Assembly: GCF_023078355.1 (NCBI RefSeq)
Contig: NZ_CP095552.1
Span: 124,001 to 188,000, forward strand
DNA from: Gordonia hongkongensis
Lineage (GTDB): Bacteria; Actinomycetota; Actinomycetes; Mycobacteriales; Mycobacteriaceae
Length of the DNA: 64,000 bases
Direction: 5' to 3'
Positions 6,098 to 22,448 of the stretch are shown in pieces (position 1 is the stretch's first letter; the number at the start of each line of letters is the position of its first letter). The notes under the pieces were generated by a model, which searched no databases, was not told the origin of the DNA, and worked only from the letters and a program-made list of their open reading frames with translations. The translations under genes were made by a program, and so were the position numbers.

Positions 6098-7057
6098 ATG
6101 GCCACCGTCCACACCGCGACCGGCCCGATCGATTCCGCTGACCTCGGGAACGTGTTGGTGCACGAGCATGTGTTCGTCGTCGGCGAGGAGTTCCGGCAGA
6201 ACTATCAGGACGATTGGGACGAGGACGAGAAGGTCGCCGAAGCTGTCCGCGACCTGACCGAACTGAAGGAACTCGGGATCGACACGATCCTCGACCCGAC
6301 GGTTCTCGGTCTCGGCCGGTACATCCCACGCATCCAGCGGATTGCCGAACAGATAGACCTCAACATCGTCGTCGCGACCGGGTTGTACACCTACAACGAC
6401 ATCCCGTTCCAATTCCACTACGCGGGACCGGGAATGCTCTTCGACGTCCCGGAGCCGCTGGTCACCCTGTTCACGAAGGACCTGACCGAGGGGATCGCGG
6501 ACACCGGTGTGCGAGCGGCCTTCCTGAAGTGCGCCATCGAATCACAAGGATTGACACCGGGAGTTGAGCGCGTGATGCGCGCGGTGGGACAGACGAGCGC
6601 CCAGACGGGGGCGCCCATCACCGTCCACACCGATCCGCACAGTCAGTCGGGTCTGGTCGCCCAGCGGGTCCTCGCCGAGGAGGGAGCCGACCTGACGAAG
6701 GTGGTCATCGGCCACTCCGGTGACAGCGTCGACCTCGACTACCTGATGAAGCTCGCCGACGCCGGTTCCATCCTCGGCATGGATCGTTTCGGGCTCGACC
6801 TCCTCCTGCCATTCGACGAGCGCGTGAACACGGTCGCCGAACTCTGCAAGCGCGGCTACGCCGACCGTATGGCCCTCGCGCACGACGCCGCCTGTTTCAT
6901 CGACTGGTTCGACCACGAGGCCAAGAAGCAGGCACTCCCGAAGTGGAACTACCGGCACATCAGTGAAGAGGTGTTGCCGTCGCTGCGGGAACGCGGGGTG
7001 AGCGAGGCCGACATCACGACCATGCTCGTCGACGTGCCGCGCCGCTACTTCGAGTAG
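6098..7057 (+). CDS. Phosphotriesterase-family metal-dependent hydrolase
   Basis: A 319-residue member of the amidohydrolase superfamily, PTE/PHP branch (family length about 320-350). The binuclear metal ligands can be placed: H22 and H24 (VHEHVF), K144 as the likely carbamylated bridge (AAFLKCAIES), H177 (TVHTDP), H206 (VIGHSGD) and D229 (GMDRFG). Such enzymes hydrolyse lactones, esters, amides or organophosphates; native substrates are usually lactone-like. The ATG at 6098 has a strong GAGGAGG four bases upstream. It follows the NCS1 permease on the same strand and overlaps the end of the convergent TetR gene by 13 bp. The substrate cannot be read from sequence. Confidence 0.9.
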   Translation: MATVHTATGPIDSADLGNVLVHEHVFVVGEEFRQNYQDDWDEDEKVAEAVRDLTELKELGIDTILDPTVLGLGRYIPRIQRIAEQIDLNIVVATGLYTYNDIPFQFHYAGPGMLFDVPEPLVTLFTKDLTEGIADTGVRAAFLKCAIESQGLTPGVERVMRAVGQTSAQTGAPITVHTDPHSQSGLVAQRVLAEEGADLTKVVIGHSGDSVDLDYLMKLADAGSILGMDRFGLDLLLPFDERVNTVAELCKRGYADRMALAHDAACFIDWFDHEAKKQALPKWNYRHISEEVLPSLRERGVSEADITTMLVDVPRRYFE

Positions 7058-8379
7058 GGCCGCGATGCACGGACCACTTGGCTTCGCGGAATGTCCGCGA
7101 GCCGGCGCGGACTCAGGCCCTGGGTACCGGGACCGCCACAGAGTTCGACCGGGCTCAGGATGGCGGATGCCAGCGCGCGGAACTCGCCTTCGATGCCCGG
7201 CCGCGAGCGGAGCTCTGGCGACGAGATGACCTGGTAGACGAATCCGGCAAGTGCCTGCGTGAGCGCGTTGGCATCGGCGTGCGCCAGGGTCGGTGAACGG
7301 GCCAGGATCGCGGCAGTCCACTCAGCGGTGTAGTCCGACGCGGTCCGGCGAAGTGAGACCTGGTCTGCTTCCGGCAGATACACGATGTCCTGGAGGGCGA
7401 TGACCAACACTCGACCGTTCGGGCCGAGCGAGTAGTCGAGGAACACACCTACGAGGACGTCCAGCGCTTCAACCGCCGAGGACTCCGCCAGTGCGTCGAC
7501 GGATATCCAGTGCAGATTCTCGAGACCTCGACGCATGATGGTCATCAGGATGTCGGTCTTTCCCGCGTACTCCTGGTAGACCGTCGCCGGCGACACATCC
7601 GCTTCGGCGGCGATCTCGTGGATTCGGACGTTGGGAAATCCGCGCGCGAAGAACATCCGGGTCGCGGCGGCGAGTATCCGATCACGCCGCGCAGCGGGCC
7701 GTCGGCTGGATCCATCGGCGAACCGCGCGCGGGACTGTGCCCCGCGGGGAAGCGGACAGCTCAGGATCGAGTCCACGACCGCCCGCTGGATCTGCGTGAG
7801 CCGCCGTGGGGTGAGCGAACCCCGCATCGCGGCGGTGCTCGAGAACACGCTGACCGCCGCGGTCGCGAGGAGTTTCGCGGTCTGGGCGTCGATGCCGGCC
7901 TCGGTGGCGTCGAACTTCGACGCCAATGCGTCGATCAGCATGCGGTGGTGCCCGTCCATGTCGTCGAGATCGGATCGGTCGAGATGCCGTCGCTCGCGGG
8001 TCCACAGTGTCGAGACGTCGCCGTGCGCCGCCCTGGTCGCAAGCAGGTCGAAGAACACGCCGAGCTGTTCGGCCGGCGATTCGCTGCGCTCCTCGGCTTG
8101 GGTCAGGAGTGCGCGTACCCCCTCCACCTGCGTCGCCAGCGCTTTCGCGAGAATGTCCTGCTTGGACGGAAAATACCGGTACACCGCCGGCCCGGTCAGT
8201 CCGACGGCGGCGCCGATCTCCTCGACGCTCACATTCCGGTAGCCGGCGTCCTGAAAGAGCGAGGTCGCTTCCGCGATGAGCTGCTCGACCCGCGGTTCCG
8301 GGGGTCGCCCCGGCCTCTCGTCTCGAGGCGCGGGAGCCGGCGCCGACCGTGACGGGGACGGAGGTGTGGGTGAGTTCAT
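7045..8379 (-). CDS. Tandem TetR-family transcriptional regulator (two HTH domains)
   Basis: A 444-residue protein, about twice the usual TetR length. It has two complete TetR DNA-binding domains: residues about 30-80 (TGPAVYRYFPSKQDIL) and about 232-280 (SPATVYQEYAGKTDIL), each followed by its own helical ligand region. A Pro/Ala-rich disordered stretch precedes the first. Its 3' end overlaps the phosphotriesterase-family gene tail to tail. A perfect 7-4-7 palindrome at 8404-8421 lies 24 bp upstream and is a likely self-operator. Possible targets are the permease/hydrolase pair or the polysaccharide operon that starts at 9034. It acts in the cytoplasm; the ligand is unknown. Confidence 0.88.
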   Translation of the reverse strand: MNSPTPPSPSRSAPAPAPRDERPGRPPEPRVEQLIAEATSLFQDAGYRNVSVEEIGAAVGLTGPAVYRYFPSKQDILAKALATQVEGVRALLTQAEERSESPAEQLGVFFDLLATRAAHGDVSTLWTRERRHLDRSDLDDMDGHHRMLIDALASKFDATEAGIDAQTAKLLATAAVSVFSSTAAMRGSLTPRRLTQIQRAVVDSILSCPLPRGAQSRARFADGSSRRPAARRDRILAAATRMFFARGFPNVRIHEIAAEADVSPATVYQEYAGKTDILMTIMRRGLENLHWISVDALAESSAVEALDVLVGVFLDYSLGPNGRVLVIALQDIVYLPEADQVSLRRTASDYTAEWTAAILARSPTLAHADANALTQALAGFVYQVISSPELRSRPGIEGEFRALASAILSPVELCGGPGTQGLSPRRLADIPRSQVVRASRPYSK

Positions 8380-9033: not shown

Positions 9034-9903
9034 ATGGACACAGTGATCGAAATGACCGGCCAGAACAACGGGACCGCAACTGTTGCGGCGCAACCAACAG
9101 ATGCCCAGCATCGACTCAGCAATGGATCATTCGTTGGGTACCGAGATCTCGGCCCGACGACATCCACGGTGAGCCTCATCATTCCGGTCCGCAATGAAGC
9201 ACGGAACATCGGTTGGGTGTTGGAACAGATCCCCAAGCGGATCGACGAGATCATCCTCATCGACGGAAACTCCACCGACGCAACACTCATCACCGCGCGG
9301 AGTTACCGCCCCGACATCAAGATCGTGCAACAGAGCGGACCCGGCAAGGGCAGTGCGTTGCGTACCGGTTTCGCCGCCGCGACGTCCGACATGATCGTCA
9401 TGATGGACGCCGATGGCAGTATGGCTCCGCAGGAGATCACGCATTTCCTGCACTTCCTCGAGAACGGTTACGACTTCGTCAAGGGGTCGAGGTTCATGGG
9501 CGGGGGCGGGTCACTCGACATCACCCGGTTCCGGCGGTTGGGCAACTACGGGTTGCTCGCGTTCTTCAACAGCTTGTACCGAACCGAGCTGACCGATCTG
9601 TGTTACGGCTTCTGCGCTTTCCATCGGCGATACCTGGATCTTCTGGATCTGCAGGCGACCGGCTTCGAGATCGAGGCCGAGATGACTGTACGCGCGGTGC
9701 AGGCCGGCCTGCGGATCGCCGAGGTTCCGAGCCTGGAAATGCCGCGTCGCACAGGTAATTCCAATCTCAACGCGATCTCCGACGGCCGACGGGTGCTGCG
9801 CACCGTGTGGCAGGCGCGAGGTGGCAGGCGGCCGGCGACGATACGTCCTGATGACAATCATCGAGGCGCCGCCCAGGTCTCCTCGGGTCACCCGGCCGGC
9901 TGA
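9034..9903 (+). CDS. GT2-family glycosyltransferase (polyprenyl-phosphate type)
   Basis: A 289-residue cytoplasmic GT-A enzyme, first gene of the polysaccharide operon. The N-terminal fold shows SLIIPVRNEARNIG (about 47-60), then IDGNSTDAT and the metal-binding MMDADGSM. The overall layout resembles dolichyl/polyprenyl-phosphate sugar synthases (DPM1/DPG), which load a sugar on a lipid carrier. No C-terminal membrane helices are evident, unlike some family members. The ATG at 9034 (MDTVIEM) is my choice; 9052 is an alternative and neither has a strong ribosome site. The next gene begins three bases after the stop. Confidence 0.85.
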   Translation: MDTVIEMTGQNNGTATVAAQPTDAQHRLSNGSFVGYRDLGPTTSTVSLIIPVRNEARNIGWVLEQIPKRIDEIILIDGNSTDATLITARSYRPDIKIVQQSGPGKGSALRTGFAAATSDMIVMMDADGSMAPQEITHFLHFLENGYDFVKGSRFMGGGGSLDITRFRRLGNYGLLAFFNSLYRTELTDLCYGFCAFHRRYLDLLDLQATGFEIEAEMTVRAVQAGLRIAEVPSLEMPRRTGNSNLNAISDGRRVLRTVWQARGGRRPATIRPDDNHRGAAQVSSGHPAG

Positions 9904-9906
9904 GCC

Positions 9907-11013
9907 GTGACCTCCGTCAAGGTCGACGACGCCGGTGAGCGGCGTGGTCGGATCGTGGTGATGACGGATCGGATGAGTCCCGGCGGGGTGAGTCATTTCA
10001 TCCTGCAGGTCGCGACCCACTTCGCGGGCGAGGGACATCAGGTCGACGTGCTGTCGCTGGCGGCCGGTGAATGGGACCATCGGCTCGCCGATGCCGGCAT
10101 CCGACGGCTTCGTCTCACGGACTCCGCAGCACTCCGCGCACTGCGATCCGCCGACGTGATCCATTGTCAGCAACGATTTCTCGGACTGATCGCCGCTGCG
10201 CTCGGGCGTGGTTCCCGCACAGTCGAACACGTACACAACGTGCTCACCGACCATCGCGGCCTGTCGTATCGCACGCAGCGGATCGTCGCGGTGTCGGGCG
10301 CCGTCCGGGCGTCACTACTCGCGAACTTCCCGCACGTGACTGCTGAGCGGGTCTCGGTCGTGCACAACGGAGTACGGAAGCTGGGCGCCACCATTGCGGC
10401 CTATGAAGACAGGCCATACGACCTCGTGAACGTCGCGCGGTTCGACGAGCAGAAGGACCCGCTGCTGTTCCTCGAACTGGTGAAGGAGCTCTCGGAACGG
10501 CGGGAGAGTCTTCGTTGCCTGTGGATCTCTCCCGGTACGGGACCGCTACAGGACGACTTCCTCCGAAGACGCCAGGAACTGCTCCTCGAGGACGTGGTCC
10601 AGATCAGCGTCGGGGACACCCACGCGCACACACGCGCACAGGTTGCCCGGTCCCGGATGTTCCTGCTCACATCGCGGTGGGAGGGCCTACCGCTGTCGGC
10701 GCTGGAGGCGCTGGCCAGCGGCACGCCGGTGGCGACAACCCCGTGCGGCGAGATCGCACACATCGTGAACGAGAGGTCGTGCGGTGTCGCCATCGACCCG
10801 CAGGCAGACGACCGTGCCGACCGGATCAACGACGTGCTGACCAATCGGACGTCATGGAATCGGCTCGCGCACAGAGCTTTCGCCGTAGCGGATGACTTCA
10901 GCGAAGTCCGCATGACGGAACAGATCAGACACATCTACGCCGGGATCGCCCCGGTATTCAGCAAGGTGCCCAGTCGGCACCTCGACAGCCAACGAACAGG
11001 AGGACGGGGATGA
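9907..11013 (+). CDS. GT4-family glycosyltransferase
   Basis: A 368-residue GT-B enzyme. The N-terminal Rossmann half has SPGGVSHFILQVATHFAGEGH, typical of the glycine-rich acceptor loop. The C-terminal half carries the nucleotide-sugar binding block SRWEGLPLSALEALASGTPVATT with the EX7E-like acidic pair. It probably adds a sugar to the lipid-linked glycan on the cytoplasmic face. The start is GTG, three bases after the previous stop, and its TGA overlaps the next ATG by four bases, so translation is coupled. The sugar donor is not predictable. Confidence 0.88.
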   Translation: MTSVKVDDAGERRGRIVVMTDRMSPGGVSHFILQVATHFAGEGHQVDVLSLAAGEWDHRLADAGIRRLRLTDSAALRALRSADVIHCQQRFLGLIAAALGRGSRTVEHVHNVLTDHRGLSYRTQRIVAVSGAVRASLLANFPHVTAERVSVVHNGVRKLGATIAAYEDRPYDLVNVARFDEQKDPLLFLELVKELSERRESLRCLWISPGTGPLQDDFLRRRQELLLEDVVQISVGDTHAHTRAQVARSRMFLLTSRWEGLPLSALEALASGTPVATTPCGEIAHIVNERSCGVAIDPQADDRADRINDVLTNRTSWNRLAHRAFAVADDFSEVRMTEQIRHIYAGIAPVFSKVPSRHLDSQRTGGRG

Positions 11014-12044
11014 GGGTTCTCGTCACCGGACATCTCGGATACATCGGAGCCGAGTTGGTCCCCATGCTCGTCGACGCCGGACACGACGTCGTCGGGCTCG
11101 ACACCGATTACTATCGGGACCGCGACTTCCGCACGGAACCGCTGCGCGTACCCACGCTCGACATGGACATCCGTGACGTCGAGCAGCGTCATCTGGCGGG
11201 GTTCGACGCCGTCGTACACCTGGCGGCACTGTCCAATGATCCGGTCAGCGAGCTGAACCCGGAGCTCACCTACGACATCAATCTCGATGCCAGCGTGGGC
11301 ATCGCCCGAGCCGCGAAGGCGGCCGGCGTTGCCCGCTTCGTCTTCTCGTCGTCGTGCAGCCTCTACGGGGCGGGCGCGGAGGGTGCGCTCACCGAGGATG
11401 CCGAGATGGAGGCCGTCACTCCGTACGGCGAATCCAAAGTCCGCGCCGAACAAGCGATCAGCGAGCTGGCCGACGACGCCTTCTGCCCCACCTTTCTCCG
11501 GAACGCCACCGCGTACGGGATCTCCCGTCGCCTCCGCACGGATGTCGTGGTGAACAACCTCGTCGGGCATGCGGTCACGTCCGGAAAGGTGCTGTTGATG
11601 AGCAATGGCGCCGCCTGGCGACCGCTCGTCCATGTCCGCGACATCTCGCACGCGATCGTCACGGTCCTGCAGGCGCCACCGGCGACCGTGCACAACGAGG
11701 TGTTCAACGTCGGTCGCAACAGCGACAACCATCAGATCCGGGATGTCGCGAAGATGGTCGCCGACATCGTGCCCGAGTGCGAGGTGGCCTTCGCCGACGA
11801 CGTCGTCGTCGACATCCGGAACTACGTCGTCGACTTCACCAAGATCGAGACGTCGCTACCGGGCTATGCGCCGCAGTGGACCCTGGCCACCGGCATCGCG
11901 GAGATCCACGCCGCCTACGTCGACGCGGGCCTGAGCGCGGACCGGTTCAACGGAAACGACTTCGTCCGGCTGCGAGTCCTGCGCGAGCTCCTCGACGCCG
12001 ACGTGCTCGACGCCGATCTGCGATGGACGGGTGATCGGTCATGA
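11010..12044 (+). CDS. NAD-dependent sugar epimerase/dehydratase (extended SDR)
   Basis: A 344-residue extended short-chain dehydrogenase acting on a nucleotide sugar. The nucleotide-binding TGHLGYIG spans residues 6-13, FSSSCSLYG (113-120) supplies the catalytic Ser, and the active-site pair is Y139/K143 (TPYGESK). RPLVHVRDISHAI is the usual substrate-binding block. It could be a 4-epimerase, a 4,6-dehydratase or a reductase; the motifs do not separate these. The next gene makes CDP-glucose, so a CDP-hexose substrate is plausible. It overlaps both neighbours by four bases (ATGA). Confidence 0.85.
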   Translation: MRVLVTGHLGYIGAELVPMLVDAGHDVVGLDTDYYRDRDFRTEPLRVPTLDMDIRDVEQRHLAGFDAVVHLAALSNDPVSELNPELTYDINLDASVGIARAAKAAGVARFVFSSSCSLYGAGAEGALTEDAEMEAVTPYGESKVRAEQAISELADDAFCPTFLRNATAYGISRRLRTDVVVNNLVGHAVTSGKVLLMSNGAAWRPLVHVRDISHAIVTVLQAPPATVHNEVFNVGRNSDNHQIRDVAKMVADIVPECEVAFADDVVVDIRNYVVDFTKIETSLPGYAPQWTLATGIAEIHAAYVDAGLSADRFNGNDFVRLRVLRELLDADVLDADLRWTGDRS

Positions 12045-12808
12045 AAGCGGTGATCCTCGCAGGAGGCAGAGGCACCCGGATCAGTGAGGAGTCCGTCGAC
12101 CGGCCGAAACCCATGGTCGAGATCGGCGGACGCCCGATCATCTGGCACATCATGCAGATCTACGCGGCCGCCGGCGTCACGGATTTCGTTGTGCTGCTGG
12201 GCTACAAGGGCTACATGATCAAAGAGTTCTTCGCCAACTACTTCCTGCACGCCAGCGATGTCACCGTGGATCTGGGCACCGGCGCGATCGAGAACCACTC
12301 GTCGAACGGTGTGCCGTGGCGCGTCACCCTCCTCGACACCGGTCTGGACACGATGACCGGCGGCCGCCTCCTGCGCGCTCGCGAACACATCGGCAACGAG
12401 ACCTTCTCGTTCACCTACGGTGACGGTGTCGCCGACATCGACATCCGAAAGGTGTTGGCGCACCACGAGATGTCGGGCAGCATCGCGACGGTGACGGCCG
12501 TGCAACCACCCGGGCGGTTCGGCACGCTCGACGTCTCTTCGCCGCAGACCAGATTCGTCGAGAAGCCGGAAGGCAGCAGCGGCTGGATCAACGGCGGGTT
12601 CTTCGTCTCGTCGCCGAAGATCCTCGACTACATCGCCGGCGACGCCACCCTGCTGGAGAAGGAGCCGCTGGAGACCCTGTCCGCTGAGGGGCAGCTGTCG
12701 GCATACCAGCACGACGGATTCTGGCGCGGGATGGACACCATCTGGGACAAGGTCTTCCTCAATGATCTCTGGGATCGCGGAGAGGCGCCGTGGAGGTGCT
12801 GGTCATGA
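12041..12808 (+). CDS. rfbF: Glucose-1-phosphate cytidylyltransferase
   Basis: A 255-residue nucleotidyltransferase of the RfbF type, making CDP-glucose from CTP and glucose-1-phosphate. The signature is at the N-terminus (MKAVILAGGRGTRISEE, then RPKPMVEIGGRPIIWHIM). Further RfbF-like blocks are VLLGYKGYMIKEFFANYF, FTYGDGVADID and the C-terminal DGFWRGMDTIWDK. Length matches RfbF (about 255-260). CDP-glucose is the entry point for 3,6-dideoxy and other CDP-hexoses in O-antigens and surface polysaccharides. It is translationally coupled on both sides. Confidence 0.88.
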   Translation: MKAVILAGGRGTRISEESVDRPKPMVEIGGRPIIWHIMQIYAAAGVTDFVVLLGYKGYMIKEFFANYFLHASDVTVDLGTGAIENHSSNGVPWRVTLLDTGLDTMTGGRLLRAREHIGNETFSFTYGDGVADIDIRKVLAHHEMSGSIATVTAVQPPGRFGTLDVSSPQTRFVEKPEGSSGWINGGFFVSSPKILDYIAGDATLLEKEPLETLSAEGQLSAYQHDGFWRGMDTIWDKVFLNDLWDRGEAPWRCWS

Positions 12809-13989
12809 CGACCTCGATGGATCGAGCCACCTCGACGGTGCCCGTCTACCGCCCCTACCTGGGCGAGGATGTCCAGCAGGCTGCAGTCGATGCCCTCGCG
12901 GCCGGATGGCTGGGCATGGGTGCACTCAGCAAGCAGTTCGAGGAGGAGGTCGGAACCTACCTCGGCGCATCCGAAAGAACTGTCGTGTCGACGAATTCGT
13001 GTACCGAAGCGCTTCATCTGGCGGCCCGGCTGATCGGACTCGGCCCGTCCGATGAAGTGATCTGCCCGTCGTTCACCTACGTCGCGGGTCATCAGGCGTT
13101 GACACGAACCGGGGCTGAGGTCGTCTTCTGTGACGTCGAACCGCGGTACCTCAACATCGACCCGCAGCGTGTGCGCGAGCTGATCACGCCTCGCACCAAG
13201 GCGATTCTGGTGGTCGACTATCTCGGCTTCCCGTGCGATCTCGACGAGCTCATGGCCATCGCGCGCGAGCACGGGTTGCGGGTGATCGAGGACGCCGCCC
13301 ACGCCTTCGGCAGCGTCCGGGCTGGACGCCGCGTCGGATCACACGGTGACATCACATGTTTCAGCTTCGGACCGGTGAAAATGATCACGACGCTCGAGGG
13401 TGGGGCGATCGTCACCTCCGATCCCGCTGATCTGCAGGTGCTTCGGGAACTTCGGCATCTCGGCATCGACTCCGACACCGACGCGCGATATCGGAACCAG
13501 CGCAACTGGGACTTCGACGTCGTCCGGCAGGGCTACCGGTGCCACCTGGGCTCGGTGCCCGCCGCGATCGGACTGTCGCAATTGGCCAGGGTCGACGAGT
13601 TCATCGCCAATCGCCAACGCTACTGTCGGTTCTACGATTCGGCATTCTCCGACATCCCCGAGCTCGAGCTATTCGACACGGACTGGTCTGACGTAGCTCC
13701 GTACATCTATGTGATCAGGACCGGCGGTCGCGCCGAACGCGCCCAGTTGGTCGAACACCTCAAGTCCGCAGGAGTCGCCACCGGAATTCACTTCCAGGGT
13801 GCGCATGAGTTCAGTTACTACCGGAACAGCCGACGCGGTGACCTGTCCGTGACCCAGGCCGCTGCCGACCGTGTTCTGACCCTTCCGCTGCACTCGTACA
13901 TGAGCGAAGCGGATCTCGACCGGGTCGTCTCCGCGGTGACATCCTTCTACCGTCCCGCCATCGGTTCGGGGCGGGCCACGGACGGATAG
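12805..13989 (+). CDS. DegT/DnrJ/EryC1/StrS-family sugar aminotransferase
   Basis: A 394-residue PLP enzyme that aminates or otherwise modifies a nucleotide keto-sugar. The N-terminal substrate segment reads VYRPYLGEDVQQAAVDALAAGW. The PLP block is IEDAAHAFGS (about 161-170) and the Schiff-base lysine is K192 in FSFGPVKMITTLEGG. K is retained, which favours an aminotransferase over the dehydrase subgroup (E1/ColD-like) where His replaces it. The ATG at 12805 has GGAGG upstream and overlaps the previous stop (ATGA); the frame also opens at GTG 12790. The likely donor is a CDP- or other NDP-keto-hexose made by the two genes before it. Confidence 0.88.
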   Translation: MTTSMDRATSTVPVYRPYLGEDVQQAAVDALAAGWLGMGALSKQFEEEVGTYLGASERTVVSTNSCTEALHLAARLIGLGPSDEVICPSFTYVAGHQALTRTGAEVVFCDVEPRYLNIDPQRVRELITPRTKAILVVDYLGFPCDLDELMAIAREHGLRVIEDAAHAFGSVRAGRRVGSHGDITCFSFGPVKMITTLEGGAIVTSDPADLQVLRELRHLGIDSDTDARYRNQRNWDFDVVRQGYRCHLGSVPAAIGLSQLARVDEFIANRQRYCRFYDSAFSDIPELELFDTDWSDVAPYIYVIRTGGRAERAQLVEHLKSAGVATGIHFQGAHEFSYYRNSRRGDLSVTQAAADRVLTLPLHSYMSEADLDRVVSAVTSFYRPAIGSGRATDG

Positions 13990-13991
13990 AC

Positions 13992-16205
13992 GTGGTTCAC
14001 CGACTCGAGGTCGCGATCGCGAGGGCGCTACCGAGCCCGCCGACTGCGCACTCGGTGCCTGACCGTGCACCGGCCGTCGTCGCCCTCCTGTCGATGACGG
14101 TGATCGCGGTCTCGACGCTGATGTGCGTTCTGACGGCGTCCGGGGTGGCTCCGCTCCTGCCCGAGGGGCTCCGCGCCGTGGCGGTGGTGAGTGTGACCCT
14201 GGTTCTCCCCGGGCTACCGATCGCGGGGCTGTTCGGGTGGCCGCGCAACGGACTTCTGCCGAGCGTCGCCATCGCCCTGTCGTTGAGCACCACCGCCATC
14301 ATCGGGCTGGCCTCCCTCCTCGCCGGCTTCTGGCATCCGCTGCTCGCGCAGGGAGTCATCCTCGTGATCGCTGCCGTCGCAACCGGGGTACTCATCAGAG
14401 CGCGATGCCCGCATCCGTCGTCCGACCTGCGCGCTGGCGCGGGAGCGGCGGCGTCGGCGGTGATCACGTCGGTCCGGACGTTCGATCGGGTCACCGCGGC
14501 ACTGCTGGTGGCCGCCTTCGTCCTCTTCCTGATCGCCGTCGCCCGACTGCATCCCGAGCAGGCAGGTGTGTACGGGCTCGTACCGATTCTCGGGATCACC
14601 TACTTCATCGGATTGGCTGCGCTCTGCGTGGCCCTGTTCCGGGAGTATCGTCGACGCCGACTGCACCGGACGGGTCTCGCCGCGACCAACGTGATGCTCA
14701 TCGTCTACATGAGCATGCCGGTCGCATGGTCCAGTGGCACACCGCCTTTCCCGACCGCCTACGTGCACCGGTTCCTCACCGATTGGTACTCCGAGCTCGG
14801 CGCGCTGCCGCCCGCGGTCGACGGCCGGATCAGCTGGAGTGGCTTCTTCGCGGGCGCGGCGCATGTGATGAGGACGGGTGGGCTCGACGACAGCACGGTC
14901 TTCCTCACCAGCGCGTCGCTGATCTTCGGAACTCTGCTGATGTTCCCCCTGTACGCACTCGGACACAGCGTGTCCGGAAGCGCGCGCGTCGGATGGGGGA
15001 CCATCACCATCTACATTCTCTTCAACTGGTATCAGCAGGATTACTTTGCGCCCCAGGCGCTCGCGATGCAGTTGTACGTGACGATCGTGGCTGTGCTGAT
15101 CTGGCAGCTGAGGGTCTCACCCCTCCCGCCCGTCGGCTTCTGGCGCGTATGGCGACGCGTGCCAGGACGACCACGTGGTCGTGGACGTGGATTCTCATAC
15201 GCGGTCGAGGGAGTTGTGATCGTCCTCGTCGCCGCGATGGTGGTCAGTCACCAGTTGACCCCGATGGTGACCATTGCCGCCCTGGCGGGGCTCGCCCTCG
15301 TCGGGTCCACACGACACAAACTGCTCTGGCTGGCCGGGCTGCTCCTGTTCAGTGCGTGGTTCACCTTCGGTGCGAGCGGGTATTGGCTGGGGCACCTCGA
15401 TCAGATCCTGACCGAGATCGGCGACGTCACCGCGAGTGTCAGCTCCGGGCTGTCTGACAGAATCACCGGGGATCCGGTCTACGGTCGGATGCAGTACCTC
15501 AGGATCGGTGGCACCGCCCTGCTCCTCCTGGTGGCCACAATCGGCTGGTTCCGTCTCGGCAAGAGCCGATTCCGATCACCCCTCGCCGTCCTGTCCCTGG
15601 TCCCGTTCGCACTCGTCGTGGTGCAGAGCTACGGCGGCGAGGTGCTCGTACGGTGCTTTCTGTATGCGTCACCCGCGCTGGCCGCACTGGCCGCGCTCGC
15701 CGTGGTCGGTGCGGCGCGTCGAATCCGAGGTTCCGCGCGCATGCCCGCCACCGTGTTCGCGATCAGTGCGGTCGCACTCACTCTCGTGGTCGCGGTGTTG
15801 GGGGTCTCCAATCGTGCGCTCAACACCTCGTTCGAGTATTCGCGGCCGGCCACCGTGCGGGTTTCCGACGAGCTGGTGGCCCAGGCGCCGTCTTCCGCGA
15901 TCGCCTATTGGGGGCAGGGCTCGACGATCGGACTGCCGCGGGCCTACGACATCGGGGCCTCGTGCATCGCCGAACAGCGCGAGTTGGCGGAATGCACTGC
16001 GGCTGAGGACATCGACTATCTGCTGGTATCCGAGGAGGACGAGAAGCTGTTGCAGTACCGGTACGGGATCAGCCCGGACGAGGTCGCCCGACAACTCGCG
16101 CTGATGGTGCAACGGGACGGTTTCGTCTCCGCCTACGACGACGGAGAGGTCCACGTGCTGAAGCGTCTGGGGGCTCCCGACATCGATCTGGAGGCCGCGC
16201 CGTGA
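13992..16205 (+). CDS. Large polytopic membrane protein of the glycan operon
   Basis: A 737-residue protein with about 12-14 hydrophobic helices (first at about 31-55, last near 600) and a soluble C-terminal part of about 120 residues, predicted outside. An internal basic stretch (about 380-400, rich in Arg/Gly) is a cytoplasmic loop. The aromatic loop WYSELGALPPAVDGRISW and the helix NWYQQDYFAPQALAMQLYV are reminiscent of GT-C-type integral membrane transferases, but no family motif is certain. In this operon it could polymerise, transfer or ligate glycan. The GTG start lies two bases after the aminotransferase stop. No function is assigned. Confidence 0.75.
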   Translation: MVHRLEVAIARALPSPPTAHSVPDRAPAVVALLSMTVIAVSTLMCVLTASGVAPLLPEGLRAVAVVSVTLVLPGLPIAGLFGWPRNGLLPSVAIALSLSTTAIIGLASLLAGFWHPLLAQGVILVIAAVATGVLIRARCPHPSSDLRAGAGAAASAVITSVRTFDRVTAALLVAAFVLFLIAVARLHPEQAGVYGLVPILGITYFIGLAALCVALFREYRRRRLHRTGLAATNVMLIVYMSMPVAWSSGTPPFPTAYVHRFLTDWYSELGALPPAVDGRISWSGFFAGAAHVMRTGGLDDSTVFLTSASLIFGTLLMFPLYALGHSVSGSARVGWGTITIYILFNWYQQDYFAPQALAMQLYVTIVAVLIWQLRVSPLPPVGFWRVWRRVPGRPRGRGRGFSYAVEGVVIVLVAAMVVSHQLTPMVTIAALAGLALVGSTRHKLLWLAGLLLFSAWFTFGASGYWLGHLDQILTEIGDVTASVSSGLSDRITGDPVYGRMQYLRIGGTALLLLVATIGWFRLGKSRFRSPLAVLSLVPFALVVVQSYGGEVLVRCFLYASPALAALAALAVVGAARRIRGSARMPATVFAISAVALTLVVAVLGVSNRALNTSFEYSRPATVRVSDELVAQAPSSAIAYWGQGSTIGLPRAYDIGASCIAEQRELAECTAAEDIDYLLVSEEDEKLLQYRYGISPDEVARQLALMVQRDGFVSAYDDGEVHVLKRLGAPDIDLEAAP

Positions 16206-16396
16206 TCGCGACCGTCCTACTGTTCGTCACGGCCGCAGCTCTTTTCGTAGCCGCCGCCGTTCGGCGCGAGCATCGGGTCCCTCCATGGGGAGCGGTGTCC
16301 ACCGATCGCGTGTCACAGGTCCTCACCGTCGTGGCGATCACGACCACGGCGATCGCCTGCGCTTCCGCCCTGCTCTACATGGTGGGCCGGATATGA
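16202..16396 (+). CDS. Small membrane protein embedded in the glycan operon
   Basis: 64 residues with two predicted transmembrane helices (about 2-20 and 40-60) joined by a basic loop (AVRREHRVPPWG). It starts with GTG overlapping the previous stop by four bases and its stop overlaps the next ATG by four bases, so it is very probably translated. It is likely a helper of the 737-residue membrane protein. No family is recognised. Confidence 0.7.
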   Translation: MIATVLLFVTAAALFVAAAVRREHRVPPWGAVSTDRVSQVLTVVAITTTAIACASALLYMVGRI

Positions 16397-17223
16397 CGCG
16401 TGCGCGAGGTGGTTGGTTCCGTACATTCCTGCAACTGCTGACGGTGGTTCTCCTCGCCCCGATCGTCGGATGTGGGATGACACCGGCGCGGGGGTTTCCT
16501 CGCGGGGACCTCCCCGGCTGGAAGCAGGTGTTCTTCGACGACTTCGATCGTGATGCGCAGGTGGGGAGTTGGGCGAACGAGTGCTCCCCGTACGACGTCG
16601 TGTACACCGGCGCGGAAGGTCAGCAGTGGTTGACCTATCCGCGGTGTTTCCCGGACACCTTCGACCGTCGGCCGTATCGAGCGGACGAGGTACTGAGTGT
16701 GGACAACGGGTACCTCGTCTTCGATCTGCACAACGTCGACGGGGTTCCGGCTGGGGCGAGTGCATCACCGATACTCGACACCGGTAGCCAATACCAGACC
16801 TACGGGCGTTACTCGGTCCGGATGCGGGTCGACACGCCAGACCTCGACGAGTACTACGTCGCATGGCTCCTGTGGCCGCAATCGGAACAGTGGCCGCGGG
16901 ACGGCGAACTCGACTTTCCCGAAGGCTGGCTGTCGAGAACCGTTGGTGGATGGCAACATTTCGCGGGCGAGGGTTCCTGCGACGGGTGCAAGATCCCGTC
17001 CCGGGACATCGGGGCGCGCTTCACCGACTGGCACACCTACACCATCGAATGGTCGCCGGGGCGTGTGCGGTACCTGCTCGACGACACCGTGGTCCTGGAC
17101 AGCACGCAGTGGGTCCCGACGACACCGATGCGCTGGCAACTGCAGACCGAGACCCGGGGCGACGGGAACAACCGCGGCCGGGTTCTCGTGGACTGGGCTG
17201 CGGTGTGGTCGTACGAGGAATGA
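16393..17223 (+). CDS. GH16-like glycoside hydrolase lipoprotein
   Basis: A 276-residue exported protein with a concanavalin A-like fold. The N-terminal signal has a lipobox PIVGC with Cys27, so it should be anchored on the outer face of the membrane. The GH16 catalytic signature ExDxxE is present as DGELDFPEG: E172, D174 and E177. ARFTDWHTYTIEWSPGRVRYLLDD is the usual downstream strand block. GH16 enzymes cut or transglycosylate beta-1,3/1,4 glucans and galactans. Inside a biosynthetic operon it probably trims, releases or remodels the polymer. The start ATG overlaps the previous stop. Confidence 0.85.
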   Translation: MTRARGGWFRTFLQLLTVVLLAPIVGCGMTPARGFPRGDLPGWKQVFFDDFDRDAQVGSWANECSPYDVVYTGAEGQQWLTYPRCFPDTFDRRPYRADEVLSVDNGYLVFDLHNVDGVPAGASASPILDTGSQYQTYGRYSVRMRVDTPDLDEYYVAWLLWPQSEQWPRDGELDFPEGWLSRTVGGWQHFAGEGSCDGCKIPSRDIGARFTDWHTYTIEWSPGRVRYLLDDTVVLDSTQWVPTTPMRWQLQTETRGDGNNRGRVLVDWAAVWSYEE

Positions 17224-17265
17224 CCCTGCACGACCGAAGACTTCGACCGGAACTGAAGAGGACTG

Positions 17266-18252
17266 ATGGGAAATAGTGACATCGGCAAGTTGTCGGTGGT
17301 GATCTGTGCCTACACCACCGACCGATGGGCTGACCTGATCCGATCGGTCGACGCCGCCGAACGCGAACTGACCGACGACGATGAACTGATCGTGGTGATC
17401 GACCACAACGACGAGCTGTTCGACCTGGCGAGGCGGGAGTTCGCCTCGTCGCTCAAGCCGCTGATCTGGGTGGTGGCCAACGACGAGAAGCGCGGTCTCT
17501 CCGGTGCCCGCAACTGCGGCACCCGTCTCGCGTCCGGTCAGGTCGTCGGGTTCGTCGATGACGATGCTGCCGTCGAACCCGAATGGCGCCGGCGACTTTC
17601 CGAGCAGTTCACCGACTCCGATGTAGCGGCGGTGGGCGGATACGCGGAGCCGGTGTGGCCCGGCGGCCGACCCCGTTGGTTTCCCCGGGAATGTGACTGG
17701 ACAGTGGGATGCAGTTACGCGGGTTTGCCGACCGCGCCGGCGCCGGTCCGCAACCTGATGGGGTGCAACATGGCGTTCCGTCGCCGGACCCTGCTCGACG
17801 TCGGGGGATTCGACACCGACCTCGGACGGGTGGGCACGCTTCCGGTGGGCTGCGAAGAGACCGAGTTGTGCATCCGGATCGCCCGATCTGACCCGGCCGC
17901 GAAGATCATCTTCGACCCGGATGTCCGTGTGCGACACCATGTGAGCCGGAACAGGACACACGTCCGGTACGTCTTGCGGAGGTCGTTCGGCGAGGGCGTC
18001 TCCAAACGACAGATCAGTGGCCTCGTCGGGGCAGCGGACGCCACGAGCTCGGAGCGTTCGTATCTCGCCAGGACGGTCCCGGCGGCCGTCCTGCATTACC
18101 TTCGTGACAGTGTGACGGCCGAGAAGCGCCGGACGGATCCCGGAGGACTCGGACGTTGCACCGTTCTCGCCGGGACCGTCGTCGCAGCAGGTCTGGGCTA
18201 CCTCTTCGCGATGCTGACCGAGGCGCGAAGCGCGTTGAGTCCTCAGACATGA
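17266..18252 (+). CDS. GT2-family glycosyltransferase
   Basis: A 328-residue enzyme with a GT-A domain: KLSVVICAYTTDRW (about 8-21), the GLSGARNCGTR block and metal-binding FVDDDAAVEPEW. MGCNMAFRR and CEETELCIRI match rhamnosyl/galactofuranosyl-type GT2 proteins. A C-terminal hydrophobic helix (about 300-318) may tether it to the membrane. It sits 42 bp after the GH16 gene, the only real gap in the operon, and overlaps the flippase gene by four bases. Confidence 0.87.
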   Translation: MGNSDIGKLSVVICAYTTDRWADLIRSVDAAERELTDDDELIVVIDHNDELFDLARREFASSLKPLIWVVANDEKRGLSGARNCGTRLASGQVVGFVDDDAAVEPEWRRRLSEQFTDSDVAAVGGYAEPVWPGGRPRWFPRECDWTVGCSYAGLPTAPAPVRNLMGCNMAFRRRTLLDVGGFDTDLGRVGTLPVGCEETELCIRIARSDPAAKIIFDPDVRVRHHVSRNRTHVRYVLRRSFGEGVSKRQISGLVGAADATSSERSYLARTVPAAVLHYLRDSVTAEKRRTDPGGLGRCTVLAGTVVAAGLGYLFAMLTEARSALSPQT

Positions 18253-19532
18253 GCATCGTGAGCAGGCCGGTGATGCTCGGCTCGAGGGCGATGACGGTGG
18301 ACTCCGTTGCCGTGGTGGCGAGCTTCTTCGTCACGGCTGGGGCGGGAATGCTCTTCTGGGTGGTCTCGGCCCGGGTCATCCCTCCACATGCGCTCGGCAT
18401 CCAGACCGCGCTGTTGTCACTTGTCACGACGGTCGGCACCATCACCGCGTACGGGGTGGGAAGTGCCTACAAGGCGATGCTGTCGACGCCCGACTGCCCA
18501 CGTCGCGAACGGTTGCTCGAGGGCCTGCTCATCACCATCGGCTCGGCCGCCGTCTTCGGCGTGATGGGCGGGATGATCGCGGGCGACATGCTCGAGAACC
18601 GGGTGGCGACCGTCGTGCTGGTGGCCTGCGGGTCCGTCGTCATGGCGCTTTTCGTACTCAAGGACGCCGCTCTGATCGGACTGCACGCCTCGCGCTGGCT
18701 TCCGATCGTCAATGTGGCCGCCGTGGTTCTGAAAGTGGCCCTCGTCTGCGTGTTGGCGAGTGTCGTGGGGCTCGCTGCGGTGTGGGCCACGATCGTGCCC
18801 GCCCTGCTCGGGGCGTGCGTGGTGTTCGTCGTCCTCGTGCCGCGGATTCTGCGGCGCCCCGAGAACCGCACAAGCCCGCACCGTGTCGTGGTGGTGGATC
18901 GCGCCCAGATGCCGATGTTCGCTCTGCGCGATGGCATCGGAAGCGCGACCTCGTTCGGACTCATCCTCGTGCTGCCGTTCCTCACCACGCTCGTCGCCGG
19001 ACCGGTTGCGGGTGCGACTCTGGCCTTGGCGCTCGCGGTGGCACAGGTGCTCGACTTCGTGCCGGATGGCATCGGAGCAGCACTCACCGCGCATCTCGCG
19101 CGCGATCCGGCGGCACTGGCCGGGCAGATCCGTCGAATCTGGGCCATCTCGCAATGTCTGGTCGTCGTCGGAGCAGGGGTTCTGATCGCAGCCTCGCCGC
19201 TCGTCGGGAAGATCTTCGGCCCGGCCTACTCGGGCTCGGAGTTCACGACGTCGTTGTGCCTGCTCGCGGCCGCCTCGGTCCTGCGCGTCCCGTATTCGAT
19301 CTGGATGTCAGTACTCCGGGCGGAGTTGGACACCAAGACGATCCTGCGAGGCAACACGGTGGTGTTCGTCATCACCTTTCCGGTCACCCTCGTGCTGGCG
19401 GGCACCTGGGGCAGCATCGGTGCGGGCTCGGGTTTGCTCGTCAGCTCGCTCCTGCTGGGCGCTGTCGGCACCTGGGACCTGAGACGACGATGGTTGTCGA
19501 ACGCAAAGGGTCACCGCAAGCTCGTCTGGTAG
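18249..19532 (+). CDS. Wzx-like polysaccharide flippase (MOP superfamily)
   Basis: A 427-residue protein with about 12 hydrophobic helices throughout and no soluble domain. Its layout resembles lipid-linked oligosaccharide flippases: an early helix pair (FFVTAGAGMLFWVVSARVIPPHALG), paired helices about every 30 residues and basic connecting loops. The expected role is moving undecaprenyl/decaprenyl-linked repeat units across the inner membrane. It is the last gene of the operon. The ATG at 18249 overlaps the preceding stop; the open frame upstream is inside the previous gene. Its end overlaps the convergent SDR gene by 22 bp. Confidence 0.8.
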   Translation: MSIVSRPVMLGSRAMTVDSVAVVASFFVTAGAGMLFWVVSARVIPPHALGIQTALLSLVTTVGTITAYGVGSAYKAMLSTPDCPRRERLLEGLLITIGSAAVFGVMGGMIAGDMLENRVATVVLVACGSVVMALFVLKDAALIGLHASRWLPIVNVAAVVLKVALVCVLASVVGLAAVWATIVPALLGACVVFVVLVPRILRRPENRTSPHRVVVVDRAQMPMFALRDGIGSATSFGLILVLPFLTTLVAGPVAGATLALALAVAQVLDFVPDGIGAALTAHLARDPAALAGQIRRIWAISQCLVVVGAGVLIAASPLVGKIFGPAYSGSEFTTSLCLLAAASVLRVPYSIWMSVLRAELDTKTILRGNTVVFVITFPVTLVLAGTWGSIGAGSGLLVSSLLLGAVGTWDLRRRWLSNAKGHRKLVW

Positions 19533-21167: not shown

Positions 21168-22448
21168 TCACACCCCCGGCGACCCGCCGGCGAGGTCCAT
21201 CGCGGTGAGGAGCAACCGGGCGACGCGGGCGTAGGCCTGGTGCTCGGCCTCGCAGAGCGCGATCTCCTCGTCGCCGAGTTCGGCCTTGCGGGCGGTCGTG
21301 AGATTGTCCATCCACTCCCGCATCTCGGCCGCGCAGATGTCGAAGAACTCGTGGACGCGCTCACGGTCCTGACGGCACATGGCCAGCACGGTCGTCGGGG
21401 AGAGCTTGTTGTCGAGCTTCTGGTTGACCCGTAGGAGCCCCTGCAGCGCCACGGGAAGGCGATCGCCACGGCGGCGGTGCTCCAGTTTGGGGCCGCTCTC
21501 GAGGCGTCGGATCATCTCCCCGCGCGCCGACCGGGCGAAGTCGTCCCAGCGTCGGAGTGCGGCATCGAGATTGGCCGGACTGAAGACCGCGACGTCGATG
21601 CGGCGCTGGGCGAAGACGAGCCCGTTGCGTACGACCAGCGCGACTTCGGGCCACCGCGGCGAGAACTCGGCGACGACCATTCCGAGCAGCGAGGGTGCGG
21701 GCACCGACGAGCTGAGGATGGTCACGATCTCCAGGGAGCGGGCGTCTCGGGTCGGCCGGAGCAGTGAGGTGCCCGTCGACCGCAGGAAGATGGCCTTGCG
21801 TGGGCTCACCACGGCGGGACGTCCGGCCGCGCTCATCGCGGCGCGGGCCAGTTCCACGAGATGGTCTTTCGACTGCGGCACCACCCCGCCCTCGACGGGG
21901 GCGTCGAGGAAACGGGCCGGGGCGGTGAAGCGCAGGGTGTCGGCGTCCGTGCTGCCGGCTCGATCCGAGTCGACCGGCCGGCCGGCGTCGGTCTCGTCGG
22001 CGTCGATACCGTCAGCCGGGGAGTGGTGTCGGGCGAAGGACGGGTCGCCGATGCTCACGAACGACGGGTGGATGACACCCCACACCTCGCGCAACGCCCG
22101 CACGGCGGCGCCGGCGAGGTCGCCGGACCGAACGGCATCGGCTTCGAAGCAGAAGGCGCTGCGACCCTCGAGCCGGCACCAGCCTCGGTCGACGATGTAG
22201 GTGGCCTGGCGCATCCACCGGTCCTTGTCGGTCCAGGTGAGGTCCCCCGCCGAGATGGTGCAGCGCAGGCGGTCCGCCGACTCTCGACTCCCGGCCACCG
22301 CGAAGGTCATCCGTCGTCGCCATCCGCCGGCGGCCGCCTCGACGATCGACAGCGTCTGACCCGGCAGGAGACGTGGCACCCGAACCGCGAGAGTGTCGGC
22401 GAAGTCCCGCCAGGCCGCCTCGAGGTCGGCGTCGAAATCGGGGGACAT
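21168..22448 (-). CDS. TY-Chap-like protein, paralogue A
   Basis: 426 residues. The N-terminal 130 residues (ADLEAAWRDFADTLAVRVPRL, GQTLSIVEA, FAVAGSRESADRLRCTI, EVWGVIHPSFV) resemble the TY-Chap (YopN/CesT-YbjN-like) domain of actinobacteria; the assignment is tentative. A Ser/Asp-rich linker (about 147-172) joins it to a larger domain containing RPAVVSPRKAIFLRS and a C-terminal helical bundle. It is a paralogue of the protein at 23476-24645, with the same domain order. It is the last of three minus-strand genes; GAGGAG precedes the ATG. No catalytic motif is seen; a peptide-binding or chaperone role is only an inference. Confidence 0.65.
   Translation of the reverse strand: MSPDFDADLEAAWRDFADTLAVRVPRLLPGQTLSIVEAAAGGWRRRMTFAVAGSRESADRLRCTISAGDLTWTDKDRWMRQATYIVDRGWCRLEGRSAFCFEADAVRSGDLAGAAVRALREVWGVIHPSFVSIGDPSFARHHSPADGIDADETDAGRPVDSDRAGSTDADTLRFTAPARFLDAPVEGGVVPQSKDHLVELARAAMSAAGRPAVVSPRKAIFLRSTGTSLLRPTRDARSLEIVTILSSSVPAPSLLGMVVAEFSPRWPEVALVVRNGLVFAQRRIDVAVFSPANLDAALRRWDDFARSARGEMIRRLESGPKLEHRRRGDRLPVALQGLLRVNQKLDNKLSPTTVLAMCRQDRERVHEFFDICAAEMREWMDNLTTARKAELGDEEIALCEAEHQAYARVARLLLTAMDLAGGSPGV

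Follow-up and report, generated by a model that had tools for sequence, protein, structure and literature searches.

A ten-gene operon of Gordonia hongkongensis with a candidate polymerase of an unnamed membrane-protein family and a possible CDP-amino sugar supply

Within a 64,000-nucleotide window of the Gordonia hongkongensis genome (contig NZ_CP095552.1, positions 124,001 to 188,000), ten genes on the plus strand, here named A to J and spanning window positions 9034-19532, may encode a surface-polysaccharide pathway of Wzx/Wzy-like type, supplied with a 4-amino-4-deoxyhexose activated by cytidine diphosphate (CDP) and using as polymerase the membrane protein F (13992..16205; 737 aa) together with the small protein G (16202..16396; 64 aa, two hydrophobic segments). 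We consider the chances of this pathway to be evenly balanced, and within it we infer the position of the keto and amino groups, the use of a monophosphate carrier, the parts played by F (as polymerase) and by G, and the export to the surface. CDP-glucose would be made by D (12041..12808), after which C (11010..12044) would oxidise a CDP-hexose, probably at its C4 position and with no 4,6-dehydration, to give a ketosugar, and E (12805..13989) would aminate the ketosugar to CDP-4-amino-4-deoxyhexose. The first sugar would be put on polyprenyl phosphate by A (9034..9903), and the chain would be lengthened by I (17266..18252) and B (9907..11013) and then flipped by J (18249..19532). Outside the membrane, F, with the help of G, would polymerise or transfer the flipped units, and the lipoprotein H (16393..17223) would trim or anchor the polymer.

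The host genome comprises 5.41 Mb in two contigs, and every open reading frame (ORF) of the operon was found again where it had been predicted. Four-base overlaps occur at six of the nine junctions (B-C, C-D, D-E, F-G, G-H, and I-J; ATGA in five cases and GTGA in one), while A-B, E-F, and H-I are separated by 3, 2, and 42 bases, in agreement with the original prediction that the ten genes form one unit with short overlaps. The start of E is most likely the ATG at 12805 within the overlapping ATGA, and not the GTG at 12790 given in the ORF list. The GC content at third codon positions (0.76-0.87) exceeds that at first and second positions in all ten genes, all of which therefore look coding; the GC content of the operon is 65.2%, compared to 67.7% for the window. 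Profile searches in Pfam and NCBIfam also upheld the predicted families, that is, a cytidylyltransferase, a short-chain dehydrogenase/reductase (SDR), a DegT aminotransferase, three glycosyltransferases (GT2, GT4, and GT2), a flippase, and a glycoside hydrolase family 16 (GH16) protein, and the polysaccharide type of the operon is supported.

An unnamed membrane-protein family with a small conserved partner

F is a multi-pass protein with many hydrophobic segments and a C-terminal tail of ~130 aa without any. The searches agree with the prediction that F and G are membrane proteins without a known family. For F, no Pfam family was matched over cut-off (PF10785 scored 18.4 bits, cut-off 25), no NCBIfam match was obtained, and no recognised Wzy polymerase family of either database was matched. 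No relative was found by sequence in the PDB, nor did a profile of F retrieve anything from the PDB at E values up to 10. When 45 members of the F family were compared with Pfam, only scattered matches were seen (nine families at E values up to 1, with three members for the most frequent one) and none was to a GT-C family. For nine distant members, Pfam gave nothing and NCBIfam a single weak match under its cut-off. In the 45 sequences, thirteen columns are invariant, including H259, D277, W282, Y351, H420, and Q421.

Some relatives of F are fused to other parts. In P0052 the F part (34% over 407 residues) follows a J-like stretch (26% over 238), P0141 carries the flippase family PF01943 over cut-off and P0062 has it just under cut-off. 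Furthermore, GT2 domains occur in 49 of the 76 wider-family proteins listed, those named being nearly all from Curtobacterium, and P0074 was verified by domain scan. These fusions to flippase and GT2 parts point to a role for F in acting on lipid-linked sugars, and the protein keeps its place as a candidate polymerase or GT-C-type transferase.

A check of co-conservation across 13992-16396 found F and G to be paired. An ORF of the G type (55-105 residues, two hydrophobic segments) begins at the F stop in 27 of 29 loci, as against 34 of 1740 random positions (2%) in the same loci, and G is thus a conserved partner of F. The motif [LRQV][RQ]E is present in the G of 23 of the 29 loci.

Two further F-like proteins, P0067 and P0121, bear an APH phosphotransferase domain (PF01636). 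Some database entries for the F relatives P0001, P0028, P0034, and P0051 say "serine/threonine protein kinase"; no kinase domain was found in F by Pfam.

F is inherited together with two glycosyltransferases

Co-inheritance was analysed in 201 genomes of the host's family, with thresholds of E <= 0.001 for F and E <= 1e-40 for A and I; the four tallies were taken as the same set from identical genome handles. F was found in 37 genomes, A in 39, I in 38, and the phosphoglycosyl transferase family PF02397 in 147. F occurred with A in 36 genomes and with I in 36, and all three were present in 35 of the 41 genomes having any of them. The exceptions were G143 (F and I without A), G032 (F and A without I), G192 (I alone), G069 and G124 (A alone), and G146 (A and I without F). 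Within-genus shuffling among the 123 genomes with a known genus label, comprising 13 F-bearing genera, gave mean overlaps with F of 14.5 for A and 14.0 for I, with maxima of 24 and 26 in 20,000 trials, compared to the 36 observed in both cases. The genes are also close together: at 35 of 39 F places A lies no more than 20 kb away on that contig, and I does so at 37 of 39. In the genomes G134 and G023, F, A, and I each occur at two places. PF02397 was uncorrelated with F, being present in 30 of the 37 F genomes and 117 of the 164 others (p 0.30), and seven F genomes had no PF02397 match.

A is a GT2 glycosyltransferase (PF00535, 88.9 bits) with no hydrophobic segment above threshold. Its best NCBIfam family is AglJ, whose members put the first sugar on dolichyl phosphate (TIGR04182, 148.8 bits, equivalog cut-off 325), and two other A matches in the same genome are 27% identical to it. 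I, also a GT2 enzyme, has one C-terminal hydrophobic segment and is nearest to AglG, a family that adds the second sugar to glucosyl-dolichyl phosphate (NF041394, 230.5 bits, equivalog cut-off 440). Among the relatives scored, AglJ was the nearest family for A in three of three and AglG for I in two of two, all below cut-off. AglJ and AglG of Haloferax volcanii are reported to be among the enzymes from which dolichol phosphate receives its first four sugars (PMC3871713). In Haloarcula hispanica, AepG is described as a GT2 enzyme resembling dolichol phosphate mannose synthases and involved in acidic exopolysaccharide synthesis (PMC9943897).

No protein of the operon matched PF02397 or PF00953 in Pfam. 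A search with twelve PF02397 sequences gave no match in 41 loci, which extend at most about 10 kb on either side and less at contig ends; a single one of these queries retrieves the remaining eleven at 38-45% identity. The loci are drawn from two collections (29 + 12), in which some genomes may be represented twice in identical or almost identical form; L130, included for its C match, has no F match, and L128 and L129 overlap. PF00953 enzymes such as WecA, sought in the host genome only, are possible starters. Because A and I resemble AglJ and AglG, no PF02397 was found in the loci, and seven F genomes have no PF02397, it is plausible that the chain starts on a putative polyprenyl monophosphate carrier.

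B is a GT4 glycosyltransferase (PF00534, 77.8 bits). J is a Wzx-like flippase of the Polysacc_synt family (PF01943, 32.0 bits, cut-off 28.2) with many hydrophobic segments, and is related to the N-terminal part of the fusion protein P0052. H belongs to GH16 (PF00722, 44.5 bits, cut-off 22), has by eye a lipobox with the cysteine at position 27, and contains the sequence ELDFPE, which fits the GH16 motif E-x-D-x-x-E; it may serve in trimming or transglycosylation of the polymer. In 22 aligned H matches (E <= 1e-20), both glutamates were kept in all and the aspartate was kept in 21, L057 having N instead. GH16-like matches were found near F in 29 of 29 loci, but the five more distant F loci (L132-L136) had none. 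In Pfam, the ten proteins gave no match to a Wzz-type chain-length co-polymerase or to a GtrA-type flippase.

Sugar-nucleotide enzymes

D is of the RfbF type and scores 389.2 bits against the glucose-1-phosphate cytidylyltransferase family TIGR02623, above the equivalog cut-off of 300.25, and matches PDB entry 1tzf at E 2e-99. The synthesis of CDP-glucose, as originally predicted, is therefore supported.

C is an SDR of the GalE type (PF01370, 157.8 bits) and a proposed CDP-hexose C4-dehydrogenase. It scores 30.2 bits against the CDP-glucose 4,6-dehydratase family (RfbG), for which none of five matches in the host genome was over the cut-off of 278.45. At the position where 4,6-dehydratases carry the triad T-D-E or T-D-K, C has S-C-S, with the cysteine conserved in 35 of 36 aligned rows, its own included and two genomes counted twice, the exception being L095; two further rows were too short. 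The best NCBIfam score of C is to GalE (105.8 bits, cut-off 262.3) and its closest solved structure is 6vo6 (105.7 bits), which we take to be Cj1427 of Campylobacter jejuni and which likewise has no acidic triad residues in the alignment. Cj1427 is reported to be a C4-dehydrogenase that converts GDP-heptose to its 4-keto form; it thus differs from C in its substrate, and the similarity is distant (PMC10680097).

C matches at E <= 1e-40 were found in 39 of 346 genomes of the phylum. The best 29 homologues besides C itself were examined for neighbours on the same strand within flanks of ~1.5 kb, and these included a D homologue in 19 cases, a C-methyltransferase in 11, and a DegT protein in three, so that 14 of the 29 adjoin one of the latter two. 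The 11 methyltransferase matches include three query sequences, and PF08421/PF08484 were present in all four methyltransferases scanned. C-methyltransferases and DegT aminotransferases of this kind act on ketosugars. As the neighbours of its homologues include such ketosugar-consuming enzymes, C probably supplies a ketosugar. Eight of the 19 neighbouring D homologues are just 33-36% identical to D; the two of them that were scored (L084, and L128, which comes from the L089 genome) have TIGR02623 as best family, below cut-off. Of the other D homologues scored, L093 is below and L083, on the strand opposite C, above the cut-off. A set of cytidylyltransferase, C-type SDR, and C-methyltransferase recurs in other Actinomycetota (L073, L074, and L077-L081), and looks like an uncharacterised route to a CDP-branched sugar.

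E is a DegT/DnrJ/EryC1/StrS family protein (PF01041, 350.1 bits), and together with the PDB match to ArnB (1mdo, 219.4 bits, its closest solved relative) this bears out the predicted pyridoxal phosphate (PLP)-dependent aminotransferase. The best NCBIfam families are PseC (282.1 bits, cut-off 423.5) and then ArnB (257 bits, cut-off 631). The PLP lysine is, by motif, residue 192 counted from the ATG at 12805. RfbH/E1-type dehydrases are not known to have this lysine, and E scores 155.4 bits against RfbH, far under the cut-off of 423. The CDP-3,6-dideoxyhexose pathway (RfbF-RfbG-RfbH), to which the operon is similar in having an RfbF-type cytidylyltransferase and a DegT-family protein, was rejected, since the genome has no RfbG over cut-off, C is without the triad, and E keeps the PLP lysine and has a low RfbH score. 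A route through a CDP-4-keto sugar to CDP-4-amino-4-deoxyhexose fits best, with C4 as the probable position of the keto and amino groups.

Occurrence of the operon and of its parts

The complete ten-gene order is kept in another Gordonia (L125) and in Mycolicibacterium tusciae (L038), and among the genomes compared these two and the host are the only three with the full set. In L038 the G match is 38%, below the cut-off of the wider locus comparison. Identities to L125 are 83% for A, 69% for B, 84% for C, 96% for D, 82% for E, 74% for F, 56% for G, 89% for H, 73% for I, and 72% for J. As the identity of D (at 10448 in L125) is above the 56-89% of the other nine genes, D may have recombined.

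The closest protein to F, at 97% identity, carries the label Gordonia. A relative of F (E <= 1e-30) is present in 12 of 59 Gordonia genomes, and a close one in just two of the 59, the host and one other (75%); the operon is thus patchy in the genus and may move or be lost often. The machinery is not peculiar to the strain, as 37 of the 201 genomes from the host's family have a relative of F and others are found in further Actinomycetota; the full ten-gene set was seen in three genomes only. What recurs in actinobacteria is a module of an AglJ-like GT2, an AglG-like GT2, F, G, and in many cases GH16, accompanied by sugar genes that vary; the present operon represents the version with the cytidylyltransferase, SDR, and aminotransferase set. 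A plasmid origin was not supported, weak F matches being found in three of 72,556 plasmid records and none covering 80% of the query. One of the weak F matches lies outside the Actinomycetota, on a plasmid of Deinococcus aetherius (NZ_AP026562.1, 431425-432519; 31.8% over about half of the query, E 1e-7). No publication describing the operon was recognised in the literature searched, which is no proof of absence. The imp cluster of Actinoplanes missouriensis may perhaps include a relative of F.

Elsewhere in the window, a single protein with two TetR_N stretches is encoded on the minus strand at 7045-8379, adjoining a phosphotriesterase-family gene at 6098-7057, and a protein carrying TY-Chap3 and Chap-C domains is encoded on the minus strand at 21168-22448.

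Competing interpretations

Several observations weigh against the proposed pathway. The scores of A and I are under the AglJ and AglG equivalog cut-offs, so that the carrier chemistry is suggested by resemblance only, and the host genome has, far from the operon, three PF02397 and two PF00953 matches that are possible in-trans starters. Three genomes have A without F and one has F without A, and no G was seen in two of the 29 loci. Of the loci in the separate 29-locus set, 20 gave a match to A and 26 a match to I at 176 bits or more, and L049, L050, and L058 gave neither; the flanks there reach about 10 kb per side at most and less at contig ends, so that failure to see a partner does not prove that it is absent. 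On the sugar side, the best NCBIfam score of C is GalE, so that C could be an epimerase, and the score of its best PDB match is low. Three of the 11 C-methyltransferase neighbours are weak matches (24-29% identity), and the three DegT neighbours are 28-29% identical to E. Because these DegT neighbours come without D, the combination of D, C, and E was seen in the three full operons only.

The same genes could belong to an ordinary Wzx/Wzy pathway, in which a phosphoglycosyl transferase from another part of the genome starts the chain on polyprenyl pyrophosphate, A and I act only as chain-lengthening GT2 enzymes, and F is a very divergent Wzy. We regard this as possible, if doubtful; the PF02397 and PF00953 matches elsewhere in the genome, the Wzx-type flippase J, and the fusion of F relatives to flippase parts agree with it, whereas the seven F genomes without PF02397, the failure of F to track this family, the lack of a match to it in the 41 loci searched, and AglJ as the nearest family of A do not. 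A quite improbable explanation is a three-component decoration system, with A making a polyprenyl-phosphate sugar that is flipped and F, as a GT-C enzyme, adding a single sugar to a wall polymer to which I, B, and H belong. Histidine, aspartate, and tryptophan residues are frequent in GT-C enzymes, and the invariant H, D, and W residues of F, its multi-pass character, and its tail free of hydrophobic segments would suit such a role, as would the polyprenyl-phosphate GT2 type of the families nearest to A and the tracking of A by F. However, F tracks I as tightly as A, its relatives are fused to Polysacc_synt flippases, no GtrA-type flippase was matched among the ten proteins, and no GT-C family was matched in the 45 members.

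For the sugar supply, C might instead be a CDP-hexose epimerase and E might act on an unrelated ketosugar, giving a polymer with a neutral CDP-derived hexose and, separately, an amino sugar. GalE, the strongest NCBIfam score of C, favors this, but C is far under the GalE cut-off, has 6vo6 as its best PDB match, and has homologues of which nearly half adjoin ketosugar-consuming enzymes; we find an epimerase rather unlikely. Returning to the preferred Wzx/Wzy-like pathway with a CDP-4-amino-4-deoxyhexose, its extension to a whole class is tentative: an actinobacterial polysaccharide class might use an AglJ/AglG-like GT2 pair on polyprenyl monophosphate and an F and G polymerase, with no phosphoglycosyl transferase, and here the unit would contain the CDP-derived 4-amino-4-deoxyhexose.

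Relation to known systems and significance

The operon is similar to Wzx/Wzy pathways in its cytoplasmic glycosyltransferases, its Wzx-type flippase, and the multi-pass protein F in the place of the polymerase. It differs in that no PF02397 was found in its loci, no Wzz or recognised Wzy was found among the ten proteins, and F has no Pfam match over cut-off and is paired with the small protein G. A likeness to the haloarchaeal assembly on dolichyl phosphate lies in A and I, which co-occur and are nearest to AglJ and AglG (PMC3871713), and AepG offers a precedent for a dolichyl-phosphate GT2 enzyme in exopolysaccharide synthesis (PMC9943897). Unlike the haloarchaeal assembly, the operon is bacterial and includes a flippase and F, its scores are under cut-off, and no oligosaccharyltransferase was matched among the ten proteins. 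A membrane-linked GT2 and a large membrane protein are also shared with the GtrA three-component glycosylation of the gsf cluster of Actinoplanes missouriensis (PMC13390465), but the operon has no matched GtrA protein and its flippase is of the Wzx type.

As F travels with two GT2 enzymes resembling archaeal ones, the combination hints at an unusual bacterial polysaccharide assembly. If the proposed pathway is correct, F would represent a polymerase family that is unnamed in the Pfam and NCBIfam searches made here, and the CDP-4-amino sugar route would be directly testable with three enzymes. The operon would then encode a bacterial polysaccharide route resembling haloarchaeal lipid-monophosphate assembly, and A with F would be gene markers for such loci in Gordonia, Rhodococcus, Mycolicibacterium, and other Actinomycetota.

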